Below are positions 20,856-48,983 of a stretch of DNA of 64,000 nucleotides, piece by piece. The notes beneath the pieces are model-generated. The model was not told the DNA's origin. It did no database searches and was given only the letters and a program-made list of their open reading frames with translations. How positions within the stretch are numbered: the first letter of the stretch is position 1; each line of letters starts with the position of its first letter. The stretch lies in assembly GCF_034479555.1 (NCBI RefSeq), contig NZ_CP140151.1:1612001-1676000 (forward strand), read 5' to 3'. The stretch comes from Chromohalobacter canadensis (GTDB lineage: Bacteria > Pseudomonadota > Gammaproteobacteria > Pseudomonadales > Halomonadaceae). A program made the translations under genes and the position numbers.

Positions 20856-21335
20856 TCATTGGCCGCAGCGAATGTCGGCCTCACACGCGACCTCAAAATT
20901 CACCGAATTCGCAATGAAGCATAGCGAATGCGCTTTCTCATGAAGAGACGTCGCTAGCTCACTATCGTCGTTTTCGCCGATGCTGACGATGGGCTTGAGT
21001 GTCACTTTATCGAAATGACCGCCGCCGCTTTTGGTCTCAATCATGCGCCCTTCGGCGTTATCCTCGTAACTCGACACCGTGATGCCAGCATCAGCGCACA
21101 GATGTAGATACCAGAGCATGTGGCATGCAGAGAGCGAGCTCAGCAAAAGCTCCTCCGGATTATAGCGGGACGAGTCGCCAAGAAATGCCGGATCCGCCGA
21201 CCCAGCTATTACGGGTTTGTCACCGCAGGTTATTTCGTGGTCGCGCGAGAAGGCGCGATAGTTCTTTGTACCTTCGCCAGAATTACCGGTCCAGACGACG
21301 GTAGCAGAATAATTGTGCTCACCTTTTTGTGGCAT
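20856..21335 (-). CDS. OsmC-family protein
   Basis: 159 aa. It starts with MPQKGEHNYSATVVWTGNSG and has NPEELLLSSLSACHMLWYLH with the peroxidatic-position Cys. A second Cys appears later (HSLCFIANSVNFEV). OsmC/Ohr proteins reduce organic hydroperoxides; this divergent branch (with GDKPVIAGSADPAFLGD) is usually annotated only as OsmC family. An attC-like site lies immediately upstream (21365-21439). Confidence 0.88.
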   Translation of the reverse strand: MPQKGEHNYSATVVWTGNSGEGTKNYRAFSRDHEITCGDKPVIAGSADPAFLGDSSRYNPEELLLSSLSACHMLWYLHLCADAGITVSSYEDNAEGRMIETKSGGGHFDKVTLKPIVSIGENDDSELATSLHEKAHSLCFIANSVNFEVACEADIRCGQ

Positions 21336-21364: not shown

Positions 21365-21439
21365 GCCTAACGCCTCATCCAAGTTTATTTTTGAAACGCG
21401 GCAGCACTTTTAGCGATAGCTTTTAATGAACTGTTAAAC
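21365..21439 (-). repeat. attC-like site between GNAT and OsmC genes
   Basis: Read on the minus strand it opens with GTTTAAC 6 nt after the GNAT stop and ends with GTTAGGC, fitting RYYYAAC ... GTTRRRY over 75 bp. The inner arms pair imperfectly (TTCAT / ATGAG). It is the weakest of the attC candidates here, supported by its position just after a stop codon. Confidence 0.5.
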
Positions 21440-21444
21440 ACTCT

Positions 21445-21906
21445 CTAGTTCAGCCATAGCTTCATTCCTTCATGCGTCGCTTTAAAACCAAGCTTCTCGT
21501 AAAAACGAATTGCATCTGGCCTTTTCTTGTCACTGGTTAATTGGACGATCAGGCAGCCTTTTTCCTTAGCTCGCTGTATTGCCCACTCGAAAAGCTTGGC
21601 ACCAATCCCATCTCCTCGCTTAGACGACGCAACACGAACGCCCTCCATCAACGCTCGCCAGCTTCCGATATAAGTCAGGTAAGGGATAAACGTAATGTGG
21701 AGCATACCAAGCAATTGGCCATCCGATTCACAAACCAGAAGCTCGTTATTTGGATCATTTTGGATAGCTTCAAATGCTCTGATGTAGCCGACTTTCAACG
21801 GCGTCCCCGGCGACTCACGGATTTGCCCAAGTTCATCATCAGCAAGCATTTCGACTAGTGATGCAAGATCATCTGATCGCGCTTCGCGGAAACGATACTC
21901 CTCCAT
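21445..21906 (-). CDS. GNAT-family N-acetyltransferase
   Basis: 153 aa. The acetyl-CoA binding core shows RVASSKRGDGIGAKLFEWAI (R/Q-x-x-G-x-G/A motif) and RPDAIRFYEKLGFKATHEGM. The acceptor is unknown. Such small acetyltransferases are very common integron-cassette cargo, consistent with the attC-like site after its stop. Confidence 0.92.
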   Translation of the reverse strand: MEEYRFREARSDDLASLVEMLADDELGQIRESPGTPLKVGYIRAFEAIQNDPNNELLVCESDGQLLGMLHITFIPYLTYIGSWRALMEGVRVASSKRGDGIGAKLFEWAIQRAKEKGCLIVQLTSDKKRPDAIRFYEKLGFKATHEGMKLWLN

Positions 21907-22001
21907 TGCTACTCTACCTCGCTCTTTTTAGGACGTCATTTTCCCTCTCGGCATTCCTTTCGCATGCGTAACAACATTAATTAGTTAATATCCAACGCTC
22001 C

Positions 22002-22149
22002 CGGGCCCCCTTGAACACCTAGGTGAGTCTGTTGCCTCGACCTCACCGCCTTCACCTTGAATTCCGGGGTGTAACGTTGGTTGCTCATGGCGTTCCCTCC
22101 TATGCACTCATCATAGACCAGAAGTTTCCACTAGAGTGGGGGAAGTCCA
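22002..22149 (-). mobile_element. IS3-family element remnant (end plus OrfA start)
   Basis: The minus strand carries a terminal sequence TGGACTTCCCCCACTC, then ATAGGAGGG as RBS and an ATG at 22088 reading MSNQRYTPEFKVKAVRS, the start of an IS3-family OrfA. Similarity stops after about 17 codons and a TAA follows. The rest of the transposase is absent. It truncates an attC site at 22150. The remaining gap to 21907 shows no gene. Confidence 0.75.
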
Positions 22150-22175
22150 GGTCCGACTGACGCTATTGGTTATGC
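22150..22175 (-). repeat. attC half-site truncated by the IS remnant
   Basis: On the minus strand GCATAAC (22175-22169) overlaps the end of the DUF6602 gene, exactly as GCATAAC overlaps the end of the DUF6119 gene. The sequence continues CAATAGCGTC and is cut off at 22149 by the IS terminus. The other arm is not found. Confidence 0.6.
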
Positions 22176-22918
22176 TTTTGTTCCACTGGGTCCAAGGTGA
22201 TATTTAAGTTGACATAACCTCCTGGGTTAAACCCCCTCATGGTGCTTTCCTCACGAGAAAGAGTGTTCATAAAACCTGTCATAAACATCGCAAACTCAGA
22301 TAGATCTGCTTTGCTTGATGTATCTAGACCAAACCACTTCTTATTTTCTGAATCGTAGAACCAATATCCCTTTCCCAGCACCACAAGAGCAGTGGTAGAT
22401 GGTGATTCATAGGATTCATACTTTAAAAATCGATCAATTTCAGGGCCCGAAATATCGCTGCCGAACGCAAACATCACATTAGTCGGTAAGCCGCCATGAG
22501 CAATTGAATTATCTTGTTGCTTTCTTGGAAATGACTTCAGTCTACGAATTGAGGAAAACTTTTTTAGAGAATCTTTAATTTGTGTCGCAGAAATTTTCGA
22601 TTTTACCTCAAAGATATAGCGGACACTTTCAACAGGGTAGATACCCAGTTCTTTGCTAAAAAAAATGGGAGGCACAAGCTTGGTGTGGTAAATTACTGCA
22701 TCTAGTTGATCAGAAAGGCTTTGGTAGGTGTCTATGATCTTTCCAGTTCCAACTTTGAAACTATGAGTTAAAAAGGGCTCTATGCATTCTTTCAGCGCTA
22801 ACTCTCGCAGATCGCCCTCAATACCGGGGTGGTCGATATCTACTGCCATATCATCCGCTGCTTTTTTTGCAGCGGCTATCTTGTTGAGGATGTACCTGTA
22901 ATATCGACTTTCTTCCAC
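22163..22918 (-). CDS. DUF6602-like protein with PD-(D/E)xK-type motif
   Basis: 251 aa from the GTG at 22918, which has AAGGAG 5 nt upstream; the in-frame ATG at 22936 lies inside the attC arm and has no RBS. The N-terminus is helical, followed by HPGIEGDLRELALKECIEPF, GTGKIID, SDQLDAVIYH and YIFEVKS. The spaced E, D and E-x-K fit a restriction-endonuclease-like fold, and the family resembles DUF6602. Nuclease activity is inference. The gene is AT-rich and sits between two attC sites, so it is a cassette gene. Confidence 0.7.
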   Translation of the reverse strand: MEESRYYRYILNKIAAAKKAADDMAVDIDHPGIEGDLRELALKECIEPFLTHSFKVGTGKIIDTYQSLSDQLDAVIYHTKLVPPIFFSKELGIYPVESVRYIFEVKSKISATQIKDSLKKFSSIRRLKSFPRKQQDNSIAHGGLPTNVMFAFGSDISGPEIDRFLKYESYESPSTTALVVLGKGYWFYDSENKKWFGLDTSSKADLSEFAMFMTGFMNTLSREESTMRGFNPGGYVNLNITLDPVEQKHNQ

Positions 22919-22932
22919 ATTCACTCCTTCAA

Positions 22933-23004
22933 GCATAACGCTGCGTTCACCGGTAAATTTGAAGCGAAGCGACTAATTTATCCGGGTGCAGCGCCTGGTT
23001 ATGC
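22933..23004 (-). repeat. attC site between DUF6119 and DUF6602 genes
   Basis: A 72-bp imperfect palindrome with the outer pair GCATAAC / GTTATGC (perfect complement), an inner pair CGCTGC...CACCGG / CCGGGTGCAGCG and a core pair TAAATT / AATTTA. The upstream gene's TAA lies within the first arm, and the next gene's RBS follows the second arm by a few bases. This is the standard geometry of integron attC sites. Confidence 0.8.
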
Positions 23005-24633
23005 ACTAGGTTTTGGCTCTGTTCCTACACCAGCAATACTTACTTCAAATCCTCTTTGCGATAGGTTTTCGAATGCCTTTGACAGATTAACTTTACTAAA
23101 GAACGGTAGATTATTCTTTAAGCTTGTTGAATCTTCACCCAAAATCAAAAAAACAACTTCAACACCATCGCTTTTAAAACTATTAAGTGGAACACTATGC
23201 TGCAAACCACTGCTTACTCCCCTTAAAACAGTTCTTGCTTTTTTCCTAAACTCTTTGTCGCCGAGTAAAATCTCAGCAGAGACACTACCTTGCGCAAAAA
23301 GATGACTTAAACCGGCTGACCCACCTTTCCTATGTTTAACATGAATAAACTGTTTTTTATCTGTCATTAAGTCACATAGCTCGATAGGTGTAGTCGTTCT
23401 ATTGCTTTTTATCAATTTTTTATCGAGTAAATGGTAGCTATGACTAGTCGAAGCTCGTTCGTTGTAGTCACCTTCTGATTCAATTTTTGATTTTGTTTTC
23501 CCGTCTTTGATTTCGTCCCATACGTGAACCTTAGGAAAGGCTAAAGTCGATACATTTATTCGATCCAGCGTAGAGTCGACCCTAGCAATAAAACTATTAT
23601 CGATCTCATACCATAAACCGGAAAATAATATGTAGGTTTTATCTGTATCCTTATACTCAAAATAAATGCACTTATAGATTTGATAGTCAGACTCATTCTC
23701 ATGAACGTCGTAAACAAAAAGCCTGTCTCGCTTAATTGAGTCAATAGAAATAGTCGCAACATCTATGTTATCAAGGTATTCCTTCGCCTCAATTGTTGGC
23801 TTTATGGAATTCTTAGTACGAGTATAGCTGAATCCATAGATACTATCCCATTGAACAATCTCGGGGATAGTTATAGTTATCTCAGAGCTCTTTGCTTTAA
23901 CAGCATCAATTAACTTTCCATCTAAGTGATCAATTTCGGACTTCTCTTTAATCTTTCTGATATTATCAACCCACGAAAAGTTACTTTTATATGAATCACT
24001 TTTATAGCAACCAGAGAGCAAATCAACCACTTGTGATATTTCATCCACACCCATTTCTATGCCAAATGAATAAACAGCATCACCACCGGAGATGTTTTTC
24101 AAATCTACACCGTTTTTAGGTGAACCTGTGACAGCTCTAATAACATCCCTTGAAATATCAATGCCAAATACTCCAACAGAAGACTCTCTAGAGGCTTGCG
24201 ACTTTTTCTGTACTGCCTGATCTTCTAGTGTAAAAAGGTCAACGCTTCGCAAACTGTCATGATTAAGTGTGTTAAGCGCAGTTTTTATTCCAAAATCATG
24301 TACAAAATATTTTGTATCTATCAAGAATCGACCATAACCGAAGGTAAAAGCCATTGTAGCTGTTGCAGTTTTTATAATAAGAACCGCTGAGCTAGAACGA
24401 TTAGCAAGTTCATCTAATGAAGCACCTGTTATATCCTCCGTAAAGCCACTCCATTTTGGCTTTTTCTCTGTTGGAATTTTTACGAATAGCTTACCTTCAA
24501 GCTCATGCTTATTGTCTAGTTCATAAGCGTTAACTTGAGATGTTCCTTTTAAGTAGTCGTCTGTTTTCAGAGAAGCATGTTCATCCTTTGCCAAGAATGC
24601 ATTCAAATATAAGTATGGCTTTTTATCTTCCAC
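22999..24633 (-). CDS. DUF6119 / TIGR04141 sporadically distributed protein
   Basis: 544 aa from the GTG at 24633 (AAGGAG 9 nt upstream); an in-frame TTG at 24642 abuts the RBS and is less likely. Landmarks: YLNAFLAKDEHASLK at the N-terminus, then AVLIIKTATATMAFTFGYGR, FGIKTALNTLNHDSLRSVD and the C-terminal LCDLMTDKKQFIHVKHRKGG with SAGLSHLFAQG. These match the TIGR04141 family, known from genomic islands and without a proven function. It is strongly AT-rich, and its stop codon is inside an attC site. Confidence 0.8.
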   Translation of the reverse strand: MEDKKPYLYLNAFLAKDEHASLKTDDYLKGTSQVNAYELDNKHELEGKLFVKIPTEKKPKWSGFTEDITGASLDELANRSSSAVLIIKTATATMAFTFGYGRFLIDTKYFVHDFGIKTALNTLNHDSLRSVDLFTLEDQAVQKKSQASRESSVGVFGIDISRDVIRAVTGSPKNGVDLKNISGGDAVYSFGIEMGVDEISQVVDLLSGCYKSDSYKSNFSWVDNIRKIKEKSEIDHLDGKLIDAVKAKSSEITITIPEIVQWDSIYGFSYTRTKNSIKPTIEAKEYLDNIDVATISIDSIKRDRLFVYDVHENESDYQIYKCIYFEYKDTDKTYILFSGLWYEIDNSFIARVDSTLDRINVSTLAFPKVHVWDEIKDGKTKSKIESEGDYNERASTSHSYHLLDKKLIKSNRTTTPIELCDLMTDKKQFIHVKHRKGGSAGLSHLFAQGSVSAEILLGDKEFRKKARTVLRGVSSGLQHSVPLNSFKSDGVEVVFLILGEDSTSLKNNLPFFSKVNLSKAFENLSQRGFEVSIAGVGTEPKPSA

Positions 24634-24654
24634 TGAAATCAACTCCTTACTGAT

Positions 24655-24714
24655 GCATAACGCCAGCCATCAGCCGCGCGAGGTACAAGCGTCAGCTGGA
24701 TGGCCTTGTTGGGC
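24655..24714 (-). repeat. attC site between TRAFs-binding and DUF6119 genes
   Basis: A 60-bp imperfect palindrome. The minus strand opens with GCCCAAC 19 nt after the upstream stop and ends with GTTATGC. The inner arms GGCCATCCAGC / GCTGATGGC pair with one bulged base, as is usual for attC. The downstream gene's AAGGAG follows by 6 nt. Confidence 0.75.
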
Positions 24715-24733
24715 AGTACATTAGGTCGATGCC

Positions 24734-25968
24734 TCAAGGTTTGGTTCGCATCAAGTTTGACTCGATATCCTTGATCCACTCACATTCAACACCCCTGTTT
24801 TCGCGCGCCTCCCTTATCATTCTGATATTGTTTGCCGTAGTTTCCGGCTCCCACGGTTCGCGCACTGATGCGACGGCCATTCCTAAAGAGGACTGCGCGT
24901 CTTCAACCTTATCAGATAAAACGGACACTTCGAGCTCTGTAGCGTAATCCCAATAATCTGGCCTTTTACTAGCCAGACGTCTTTTAACTGCATAAGCAAC
25001 TACAGGCATAAGTTCATTTCTTCTGGGATCAGGAGGGTCTGAGCACTCCATGAGCGTTACCGCGTTGATTCCTGGATATGCATCTCGCCAGTCCGATTCA
25101 AAACCTTGGAGATAAGCATCTATAGCCATATTCAAGAAGCCACGACCAGCCGGGTTCTGCTCCTCACTAGCCTTCAACCATCGGTCTTTATATACACGGC
25201 CTAGAATACCGTTGGTTTCACTACTGGGGCCATGACACTCAATCACTTCTGCCAACATCCTCTCCGCATCGTCATGCCGGCCAAGCCTATTCAGTGCAAA
25301 ACCTAATTGCTCTTGCACAAGTATCGTTTGCTTGAGGGGCGGAGACATCTTAGCAACTAGATCAACCATTTTTTGCCAATCTTTTACTGCTCTGTAAGAA
25401 AGGAATAGATCGATAACAATCGCGGGATCCGCGTCCACTACATCTATTTCTCTCTCAATATTTTCAACAGCAGAACTACTTTCTTCGCGAGCTCTCCTTA
25501 GTCGCTCTTTCATGGTCTTTGAGTACTCTACAATGTCCCGGAAAGCATCTGTTTTTAGTCTTTGAAGGTCCGGTCTCGGCACATCGGTTAACAGCTGATA
25601 CAGTGGGCTGTCATCTGCTGGGTCACGACATGACTCAAGCCTTTCAGCTAGCGCGTGACGGGTCTCCTCGGGGTTTTCTGGAAATCCGTATTCATCGACG
25701 TTATAGAGAATCGCTCTTAAAGGAGAAACATCAAAAGGTAAGCGCATGCCGCTTCCGGCTACCGGAACCGTGCTGTATGGTCGCACACCATGTCTTATCC
25801 CCAATTCATAAAATACGTTGGCGTTAGCAGTCGTGAGGTCTGCTACCGCATAGTCGCACATCATAAGCCGCTCAAACATCGGTTTATGGATGATCCCACC
25901 GATGACCTCTTCGTCCGCTCTGATCGGCTCTAAATTGGCATCCGTTATTGCAGGAGCAATTATTTGAT
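24734..25968 (-). pseudogene. TRAFs-binding-domain (DUF4071-type) protein, 5' end removed by IS
   Basis: About 411 codons remain; the first in-frame ATG is at 25879 (381 aa). The N-terminal part has LEPIRADEEVIGGIIHKPMF and CDYAVADLTTANANVFYELG, a motif shared with TIR-like and deoxyribosyltransferase-like folds. Behind it lies a TPR-like helical region (FALNRLGRHDDAERMLAEVI). Family members have about 25-30 more N-terminal residues; here family sequence begins exactly at the IS end (25968), so the true start is lost. It may still be translated from 25879. Confidence 0.75.
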
Positions 25969-27650
25969 CCTGAATCCGTGAGACCAGCCCCCAGAAATGC
26001 TTCTAACCTACTGAACTGCATGGCAATATAGCGAATATCGCCATTCACCCAGACAGTGCCATGCCCAACGTCAAGTTCCGCGCCAGTCGCCGCACCCTCA
26101 CCAGCCACGCCGGGCTGTCCATCATCGGGCAATGCTTCGAGATCGCTGGCGTCGACAGCATCGACAGCCGCTTCCCCACCACGCTGGGCATGCGCACCAG
26201 TGACGTGATCAAGAGCTACCTGGGCCTGCTGTGTCTGGGCATGAGCGACTATGACGCTGTCGAGAACTTCCGCCGCGACAAGCCCTTCCAACAACTGCTG
26301 ACCCTGCAGAAGGTGCCGAGCGCGGCGACGCTGCGACAGCGGCTGGAGAAACTTGCCGCCAACGACCTGCAGGCGCGCACCGCCACCTGGTCCACGACCC
26401 TGCTGTCACTGATCGAAGCACCGATCACCGCCGAGACGACGCACGTCTGCCTGGACATCGACACCTTCGTCATGGACAACAGCAACTCGAAGAAGGAAGG
26501 CGTCTCGCGGACCTACCAGAAGGTCGATGGCTACACCCCGATCGCCGCCTATCTGGGCAACGAAGGGTGGTGCCTGGGTCTGGAACTGCGGCCTGGCAAG
26601 CAGCACACCATGAAGGAGAGCAACGCCTTTCTGGAGCGGGTACTGCCTCGCGCCCAAGGCCTGACCAAGCAACCGATCCTGTTACGCGAGGACAGCGGCT
26701 TCGACAGCCAGGCGCACCTGGCGCTTCTCGAACAGCAGCGCCAGGTCTTTGCCGACGAGGGGCGCCGGCTCGACTATGTCGTCAAATGGAACCCGCGCGG
26801 CTCGGCCACGGCGGATCAGGATACCTGGTTGGCTGTGGCGGCGGACTACTGGGAAGAGCTGCGTCCTGGCAAGCGCCAGGCGCTGTGGACGCAGACCGTC
26901 TCGATCCACGACGACAACAAGACCGAATACGTCGTCCAACGCGTGATGCGCCTGGTAGAGCGCACCGCCGATCGCGATGGCCAGTTGCTGCTCGAACCGG
27001 ACTATGAGTTGGAAGGCTGGTGGACCAGCCTGGACGAGGCGCCGGAGGCGGTGATCAAACGCTACCAGGCGCATGCCACCCACGAGCAATTCCACAGTGA
27101 GATCAAGACCGATCTCGACCTGGAGCGGCTGCCGTCGGGCAAGTTCGCCACCAACGATCTGATCCTGCACCTCGCCCAGCTGGCCTACAACATCCTGCGG
27201 CTGATGGGGCAGCTGGGCATGACCGGCGAGCTGAGCCCGGTGCGCCATCCCGCCAAGCGGCGCCGGATCCGCACCGTGCTACAAGAGCTGGTGCATCGTG
27301 CGGCGCTCGTGATTCACAAGGCGCGGCAGATCATCCTCGACTTCGGGCAGGACATCGGACGCATGACGGTGTTGAACACCTTGCGAAGCCGCCTGCGCTA
27401 TCCCCGAGGCACGCCATGCTGATCGTCTGTCGGACAAAGGCACCACGCAGAGAGCTGACGGTCATCGGCAGCCAGTATCAGCGTGCCCGGCGGGTAGAAA
27501 TGCCTGTCAAAATGGGCTGCTCTCGTCGGTCAGCGTCGCCATGGTTGGTCCTCCCCGGTATGCGTTCAGCGGTTGAGACGGAATCGGCGGTCAGAAAATG
27601 CTCGCTGGCGGTGATAGGGGAAGTGTCGGCGCTGGCTTCACGGAATCAGG
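25969..27650 (+). mobile_element. complete IS1380-family insertion sequence (1682 bp)
   Basis: The terminal inverted repeats are 25969-25988 (CCTGAATCCGTGAGACCAGC) and 27631-27650 (GCTGGCTTCACGGAATCAGG), matching at 17 of 20 positions. One transposase gene lies inside. The flanks (TTGAT left, TACCT right) are not direct repeats, so the element is not in a simple insertion context. After the transposase, 27423-27630 shows no further gene. Confidence 0.88.
26061..27422 (+). CDS. IS1380-family transposase
   Basis: 453 aa DDE transposase. The N-terminus has SRRTLTSHAGLSIIGQCFEI, and DDE-region segments include VCLDIDTFVMDNSNSKKEGV, LLREDSGFDSQAHLALLEQ and the C-terminal HEQFHSEIKTDLDLERLPSG (Glu of the YREK-like motif). 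The length is full for the family, and no frameshift is seen, so the element may be active. GC content matches the host core rather than the AT-rich genes beside it. Confidence 0.95.
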   Translation: MPNVKFRASRRTLTSHAGLSIIGQCFEIAGVDSIDSRFPTTLGMRTSDVIKSYLGLLCLGMSDYDAVENFRRDKPFQQLLTLQKVPSAATLRQRLEKLAANDLQARTATWSTTLLSLIEAPITAETTHVCLDIDTFVMDNSNSKKEGVSRTYQKVDGYTPIAAYLGNEGWCLGLELRPGKQHTMKESNAFLERVLPRAQGLTKQPILLREDSGFDSQAHLALLEQQRQVFADEGRRLDYVVKWNPRGSATADQDTWLAVAADYWEELRPGKRQALWTQTVSIHDDNKTEYVVQRVMRLVERTADRDGQLLLEPDYELEGWWTSLDEAPEAVIKRYQAHATHEQFHSEIKTDLDLERLPSGKFATNDLILHLAQLAYNILRLMGQLGMTGELSPVRHPAKRRRIRTVLQELVHRAALVIHKARQIILDFGQDIGRMTVLNTLRSRLRYPRGTPC

Positions 27651-48497: not shown

Positions 48498-48983
48498 TTA
48501 GCGGCGTACGATTCCGATACGCCGCCCTGCGGCGCTCGGCCACTCGTCTCCAGCGGGCGGCAATGTCTCGATAACCGCCGCGACCGGTTCGGGGAACGGC
48601 CCCGGCCGGCCGCTAGCGACATCGATGCCCATCAGCATCTGCTCGCTGGTCGCCAGTGGGTCGCCGTCGGCGTTGCGCAGAGTGAAGAAGACATGCAACC
48701 GCTTGGCATCATGATCGAGCAGTGTCAGATCGACCACCAGTGCCTCGCTGCGATGCGCTTGTTGGCGGTAGCAGAGATGCGTCTCCAGGGTATAGAGCGT
48801 GTAACCATGCTCGGCTCGCCCCGCCACATCGAGACCGATACGCTCCATCAGCGCCTCGATGGCCAGCGAGAAGACCCGCGCGTACTCGGCATCGTTCATG
48901 TGGCCGTTGTAGTCGACCCAGGCGTCAGCCACCCGGGTTTCCAGCAAGGGGCCGAACGTCGAGCTGTCTGGTGTTTGACTCAT
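48498..48983 (-). CDS. thioesterase, betainyl-CoA thioesterase-like
   Basis: 161 aa hot-dog-fold 4HBT-type thioesterase: ADAWVDYNGHMNDAEYARVF (catalytic Asp/Asn-His region) and LYTLETHLCYRQQAHRSEAL. It overlaps the L-carnitine dehydrogenase stop by a TGATG junction and is the last gene of the carnitine operon. In Pseudomonas the corresponding CdhB hydrolyses betainyl-CoA to glycine betaine; the role here is inferred from context. Confidence 0.88.
   Translation of the reverse strand: MSQTPDSSTFGPLLETRVADAWVDYNGHMNDAEYARVFSLAIEALMERIGLDVAGRAEHGYTLYTLETHLCYRQQAHRSEALVVDLTLLDHDAKRLHVFFTLRNADGDPLATSEQMLMGIDVASGRPGPFPEPVAAVIETLPPAGDEWPSAAGRRIGIVRR

Follow-up and report, generated by a model that had tools for sequence, protein, structure and literature searches.

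How clusters of attC sites lacking integron integrases (CALINs) could keep changing without an integrase is, to our knowledge, an open question, on which a locus of Chromohalobacter canadensis bears. The locus lies in a stretch of 64 kb, here called the window, which corresponds to positions 1612001–1676000 of contig C1 in a complete 3.6 Mb genome (G000). Four genes on the minus strand, coding for a GNAT acetyltransferase and for DUF6602, DUF6119 and TPR-S proteins, are each followed at the 3' side by an attC recombination site or the remains of one, and one of these sites, termed D, is cut by an insertion sequence (IS). We consider it highly probable that the array represents a CALIN occupying one fixed place in genomes of the genus, that site D was struck by a member of an IS3-family clade which inserts into attC sites, and that the solo left end of the element then became a junction of cassette exchange. 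At the level of sequence, what speaks for this reading is the orphan status of the array, a fixed insertion point, the coherence of the clade, four empty attC sites restored from IS flanks, and homology that breaks exactly at IS ends. The sites and the IS remnant are as follows:

21365..21439, minus strand: decayed attC site A (9.5 bits), whose R' box at 21365–21371 is the limit of homology in three relatives
21938..22149, minus strand: left-end remnant of an IS3-family element, whose inverted repeat, TGGACTTCCCCC, has its end at 22149 and whose OrfA start is broken
22150..22175, minus strand: half of an attC site (D), consisting of the R'' and L'' boxes, overlapping the stop codon of the DUF6602 gene and abutting the IS3 left end at 22149
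22933..23004, minus strand: attC site B, overlapping the stop codon of the DUF6119 gene (37.8 bits, E 8.4e-8)
24655..24714, minus strand: attC site C, which follows the TPR-S gene (27.2 bits, E 6.8e-5), folding into a bottom-strand hairpin

An orphan cassette array

Sites were scored with our own attC covariance model, R1, which is distinct from that of IntegronFinder and was built from 22 attC sites (three from the other attC locus of the same genome, 19 from relatives, those of the window being excluded); the training sites were gathered with a pairing grammar and then aligned, and the consensus structure was written by hand. Searching the window with R1 (E ≤ 10, default filters) returned exactly two matches, at 22931–23006 and 24653–24716 on the minus strand, corresponding to sites B and C. 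The original prediction, made from the sequence of the window, had named these two as convincing and had proposed folding them as bottom strands; the scores bear it out, both sites form bottom-strand hairpins (RNA parameters), and its attC coordinates proved correct to the base. With the filters off and 11 kb searched, the region of site D reached 12.6 bits (E 0.13), partly owing to letters inside the IS, and the score of site A (E 0.93) is not significant alone. Site A had been put forward as plausible, which is supported by the homology of the three relatives that stops beside its R' box but not by its sub-threshold score. The home-made grammar, applied to the two strands, gave 35.0/31.5 for site B and 30.0/26.5 for site C, as compared with 41 matches and a top score of 29.5 on 372 kb of shuffled sequence. 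Since it also assigns 30.0 to a G+C-rich stretch at 48591–48678, which R1 does not report, the grammar alone is insufficient for site C. Neither RNA families at the gathering threshold nor tRNAs were found in the window.

As predicted, the DUF6602 and DUF6119 genes have their stop codons within the first attC arm; for the GNAT and TPR-S genes, the stop codon precedes it by 5 and 19 nt, respectively. On the gene strand half-site D reads GCATAACCAATAGCGTCAGTCGGACC; it comprises the R'' box GCATAAC and the L'' box. That site D is cut by an IS had been stated correctly in the original prediction, which passed over this IS, in our view the most interesting part of the locus, without comment on its nature.

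No integrase gene (intI) had been seen beside the array, and none was found: searches revealed no intI pieces in the window, its two 20-kb flanks and the OsmC loci of seven relatives (a set that does not include the OsmC-side loci L082 and L084), and the genome as a whole contains no match to TIGR02249 above the cut-off. The best matches below the cut-off are two long tyrosine-recombinase frames, which we read as resembling XerC and XerD, and two short N-terminal intI pieces (1157310 and 1160196) about 475 kb from the array. At this home locus (L019, 9264–12435) the two N-terminal fragments are separate, both decayed, and about 2.9 kb apart. Among the ten genomes of the genus, including the present one, only G007 retains an intI above the cut-off; that of G002 is frame-broken, that of G008 has lost its middle part, and G004, G005 and G009 contain fragments. 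In the five genomes that have both on a single contig (G000, G002, G004, G005 and G009), the remnants lie 109–116 kb from the same tyrosine-recombinase gene, which marks a shared home locus.

Sites recognized by R1 occur in all ten genomes, in many clusters. Together with the training sites, they number at least 89 (E ≤ 0.01), as counted from 150 scored candidates per genome out of about 1700–2400. The present genome has ten in three clusters: five at 531–542 kb, three at 1154.8–1159.4 kb, which are the training sites contributed by this genome, and the two of the window; two weaker matches were obtained at 1027 kb (E 0.1) and 1153.5 kb (E 0.4). The cluster at 531–542 kb (L057, C1:526001–546000) is a second orphan group, its five matches accompanied by small cassette-like genes.

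Sites B and C are 1.7 kb apart and have no intI beside them. Because no intI above the cut-off exists in the genome and its remnants are about 475 kb away, the array is a CALIN. The original prediction had left the choice between a CALIN and the tail of a chromosomal integron; the first stands, and the second is unlikely given the distance of the home integron. The cassettes would have been brought together by integron recombination before the decay of, or in trans of, an intI elsewhere that is now decayed.

The IS3-family left end at site D

Upstream of the GNAT gene, a stretch of 240 bp opens with TGGACTTCCCCC and the broken OrfA start. Positions 21938–22079 share 79% identity over 142 bp with bases 88–229 of a full 1270-bp element of G005, and the outer 70 bases of the remnant match left ends of the same subtype elsewhere in the genus. 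In G005, full copies have a length of 1270 bp, carry TGGACTTCCCCC at both ends as inverted repeats of the TG...CA type and are bordered by target duplications of 3 and 4 bp. The transposase is of the IS3 type, with an OrfA and a DDE OrfB: OrfB of one such copy (L092) matches NF033516 with 261 bits (cut-off 160), and OrfA alone, with 55.7 bits, stays under the cut-off.

The copy in the window has no right end, and the R'' box of site D lies 19 nt outside its left end. Left ends of the same kind stand beside different half attC sites elsewhere in the genus. By our own count, GTT[AG] begins 18–21 nt outside 15 of the 17 left ends listed for the genus, and at exactly 19 nt in 13 of them; the exceptions are the decayed copy at the home locus of the present genome (TTTA at 19 nt) and a copy in G005 (C2:150725, GTTA at 4 nt). 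These 17 ends derive from 22 matches to the IS-end pattern, from which eight were dropped (L093, L094 and L105, which represent an unrelated chromosomal stretch, four right ends, and one tandem inner copy), and include three extra ends with a mismatch in the repeat. In G005 (L081, 7450–7500), the terminal 40 bp of the left end are tandemly repeated beside a half attC site.

A pseudo-attC drawing on an R'-like stretch inside the IS (22067–22177, 12.6 bits) was considered as an exchange point. It was rejected because homology between species ends at the IS end and not there.

A fixed insertion spacing across an IS3 clade

Searches with OrfA extended the comparison beyond the genus. Within the order, 35 of 390 genomes, from 22 of 142 genera, contain a match at 1e-20; within the class, 5 of 369 genomes do, the present one included; and a plasmid collection yielded three records, namely two Salinivibrio plasmids and pKAZ2. 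The clade loci, taken from the best OrfA matches only, comprise 40 places in 39 loci, 39 of them with a left repeat; these 39 left ends overlap with the 17 of the genus by two. GTT[AG] starts 18–21 nt outside the left end in 33 of the 39 copies, the background frequency being 3.1% over 270,984 positions of these loci. The distance is 19 nt in 19 of the 33, 20 nt in 12 and 21 nt in two, and the stricter GTTRNNY is found at 26 of the 39 left ends. The order-level loci were those in which the rule was noticed; in the loci from the class and the plasmids, whose flanks were first examined afterwards, eight of nine places with a left repeat conform.

IS3 elements outside the clade served as controls. 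From 30 control loci, 17 without resolved ends were removed, as was the clade member L164 from the remaining 13; in the resulting 12, the GTT[AG] spacing was observed once at the left and once at the right end. An OrfB tree (matches of at least 200 residues; 51 copies, 45 distinct sequences, midpoint root) separates 26 clade copies from 19 others with a support of 0.896; L175, labelled as a control in this tree, is a clade member of G007. Matches of R1 to attC at E ≤ 0.05 occur in 14 of 38 clade loci and in 2 of 27 control loci (L122 of the clade, and the clade members L164, L166 and L175 among the controls, were left out of these counts); since R1 is genus-trained, it may miss attC sites of other genera.

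These figures bear on a rival explanation, namely that the array is an ordinary CALIN into which an IS happened to fall. CALINs as such are already known (PMC7923331), and the account of Vibrio cholerae in PMC11023631 describes IS3 copies inside cassettes, not in attC sites. A single spacing at 33 of 39 left ends is far from the chance expectation, and only 1 of 12 control elements shares it; a chance hit on site D is thus very improbable, and the idea was rejected. The clade transposase would instead insert into attC at a point just within L'', some 19 nt away from R'', and the genes of the IS would read in the direction of the cassettes.

Target sites restored from IS flanks

For 21 copies with two ends, the flanks were joined and scored against mismatched joins. 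True joins averaged 14.5 and mismatched joins 10.7 over all 21 copies (permutation p 0.0003). Target duplications of 2–4 bp are present in 10 of the 21 and absent from 11; for the ten with duplications, the respective scores were 18.2 and 9.5. Four of these, L126, L130 and L138 (3 bp) and L146 (2 bp), yield complete attC sites with pairing arms, three of which were folded, and each beats 19–20 of 20 mismatched joins. The distance from the insertion point to R'' is nearly constant among the four restored sites and that to the hairpin tip varies, which we read as indicating that the target is measured from the R''–L'' side; the transposase itself may read this region.

Several observations weigh against attC as the target. 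Only four of the ten copies with duplications restore an attC site: L092, L103, L114 and L139 sit in non-attC places, and L125 and L137 have both the R'' spacing and a duplication while the second half remains unmatched. The eleven copies without duplications score 11.1 as compared with 11.8 for mismatched joins, only L127 coming near a site. Such unmatched halves are expected if IS copies recombined with each other, which is how we read the duplication-free copies, but these could also be weak evidence for attC. On the right side, the strict R' motif is found in 6 of 21 copies, without clear enrichment over the 18% expected by chance, and the looser CGTTA in 10 of 21 as compared with 8%, a motif that was picked after inspection. 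Finally, 6 of the 39 left ends of the clade miss the spacing (L114, L122, which is the decayed copy of the present genome, L132, L134, L139 and the second place of L150); one of them, L114, has an OrfA 85% identical and occupies a target other than attC, flanked by a 3-bp duplication.

Some of these copies fit an alternative in which the element recognizes a short linear motif, TTGTTA with a spacer, of which attC would merely be a frequent supplier. L092 and L103, whose targets are not attC, retain GTTA at distances of 20 and 19 nt, respectively, so the sequence and not the attC fold may be what is read; each of the two positions before GTTA is a T in 31 of the 33 aligned flanks; and L125 and L137 combine spacing and duplication without a paired attC. 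That the four restored sites are complete attC sites, and that other attC sites are more frequent in the loci of the clade than in those of the controls, argues against a purely linear signal, which we regard as a doubtful though real possibility.

Probable cassette exchange at the IS ends

Comparison of the window with G005 shows likeness over 1471 nt on the inner side of the IS end, which is about the limit of the stretch compared, and over 0 nt beyond it; for the window and G007, the corresponding values are 1328 and 8 nt. A second locus gives 1511 nt on the inner side and again 0 nt beyond for G005 and G008, and the half-sites past the IS ends differ between the relatives. Here (L109 and L095), G005 and G008 have in common a short gene, antitoxin-like by eye, which is preceded by some 90 bp of the IS left end, and the half attC sites beside this fragment differ. 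Because likeness reaches up to the IS end at two loci and stops there, the IS ends look like a repeated junction of cassette exchange. Most of the IS at site D would have been lost, its left end persisting as the junction while the upstream cassettes were exchanged in different species.

Exchange at a solo left end might proceed by one-ended transposition, i.e. a deletion from the IS end into another attC site, or by homologous recombination between IS copies residing in different attC sites, and both fit the observed junctions. The principle of one-ended transposition with adjacent deletion is described in PMC9330008, and for the array of V. cholerae, PMC11023631 reports experiments in which IS3 copies recombined with each other. 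Homologous recombination is favored by the copy in G009, which we read as a chimera of two IS subtypes, and is in line with the duplication-free copies, whose halves fit no better than mismatched ones; against it, the IS end shared at the second locus amounts to only about 90 bp, which favors one-ended transposition. Sequence identity over some 90 bp is short for efficient homologous recombination. We judge homologous recombination to be an even bet as the route. Similarly balanced, in our estimation, is the wider proposal that a gammaproteobacterial IS3 clade targets attC specifically and that its solo left ends may act as integrase-independent exchange points, where incoming cassettes are linked to resident ones at one constant nucleotide.

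Cassette genes and flanks of the array

The genes of the array and its neighbors are:

20856..21335, minus strand: OsmC-like gene (PF02566), the conserved flank beside site A, present in seven of nine relatives' loci compared
21445..21906, minus strand: GNAT acetyltransferase cassette gene (PF00583, E 6e-18)
22163..22936, minus strand: DUF6602 cassette gene coding for a NucC-like PD-(D/E)xK nuclease (PF20247; PADLOC PD_DExK 114 bits, NucC 59 bits)
22999..24642, minus strand: DUF6119/TIGR04141 cassette gene (465 and 476 bits)
24734..25879, minus strand: TPR-S/MAP3K_TRAF_bd cassette gene (PF20308, PF13281)
26061..27422, plus strand: IS1380 transposase gene at the upstream end of the array (NF033539, 339 bits)

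The recombination core of site A coincides with a boundary in the relatives. G002, G004 and G008 match the OsmC side up to window positions 21372–21375, i.e. their homology ends within 4 nt of the R' box, and beyond the break they appear to continue with other, attC-like sequence. G002 and G004 are alike at the break, which in our reading implies at least two events. The GNAT gene and site A are common to G000, G005, G007 and G009, and G001 has site A and part of the GNAT gene as far as its contig end. Judging from these homology breaks and the pattern of sharing, the core seems to have been used at the OsmC locus since these species parted.

At the other end, IS1380 (26061–27650) marks a rearrangement: from 27650 onwards the window matches the malate synthase side of the relatives, which in G002, G005, G007 and G009 lies about 180–215 kb from the OsmC side. 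Given that IS1380 stands at the border of the array and that the rearrangement it marks spans about 200 kb, the array might be a translocated piece of the home integron and not a set of cassettes inserted singly at this locus. Relatives without the rearrangement also have attC or attC-like junctions beside OsmC, and we think a translocation unlikely. The 5' end of the TPR-S gene was probably cut by IS1380.

The cargo would appear to be defense-like. The DUF6602 protein aligns with the CBASS effector NucC (PDB 6p7o; E 7e-12) across residues 34–134. This NucC-like nuclease stands alone in its cassette, and no cyclase family, as a possible partner, was found among the neighbors scanned (ten by Pfam, ten by NCBIfam and seven by PADLOC). 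The TPR-S protein resembles part of MAP3K5 (E 3e-5). For the DUF6119 protein, no solved structural relative was found by sequence; homologues at 16 loci include those of Vreelandella arcis (90%), Microbulbifer halophilus and Idiomarina aquatica (82% each) and Citrobacter gillenii (79%). R1 places an attC site over the stop codon of the homologue in 3 of the 16 loci (L042, L043 and L051), the grammar finds one directly after the stop codon in L047, and in the other 12 neither tool reports a site at the stop codon. At several of these loci a common leader, as we read it, begins at a GTTRRRY-like core.

Relation to known systems and implications

With two attC sites 1.7 kb apart, cassette genes on one strand and no intI nearby, the array does not differ in any essential respect from other CALINs, except that relatives use the same locus and that an IS has made a half-site in it. 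Targeting of attC is known for the IS1111 group and for group IIC introns, and targeting of repetitive extragenic palindromes (REP) for IS3-family elements (PMC12444791, PMC11187229, PMC7923331, PMC1525189). Members of the IS1111-attC group (IS110 family) likewise insert at a definite place in attC, whereas the element described here has an IS3 transposase, terminal inverted repeats and, in 10 of 21 copies, duplications of 2–4 bp; its OrfA and OrfB match IS3 and not the DEDD transposase of the IS110/IS1111 type, no IS110 model appearing among the NCBIfam matches. IS1397 and ISKpn1 are IS3-family elements that choose a palindromic target, as outlined in PMC1525189, but their target is REP and not attC. 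Group IIC-attC introns also insert at attC, in CALINs too, but are retroelements and run opposite to cassette transcription according to PMC7923331, whereas the IS reads in the direction of the cassettes.

What appears to be new here is an IS3-family clade repeatedly inserting at one fixed spot in attC. No report of attC targeting by the IS3 family was found in searches of the open-access literature on integrons and IS targets, most of which was judged by title, so its absence is not proven. IS3 accounts for 23% of the transposases found in phyllosphere cassettes, as stated in PMC11089894, where attC targeting is exemplified by the IS1111 group; the clade may help explain the presence of IS3 transposases in cassette arrays. 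Its ends also mark degraded attC sites, such as site D, that covariance searches miss. PMC7923331 asks what CALIN cassettes do in a genome without intI. If the proposal is true, arrays without intI can still be reshuffled, and a widespread, attC-bound IS clade would provide a testable second route by which CALINs change.

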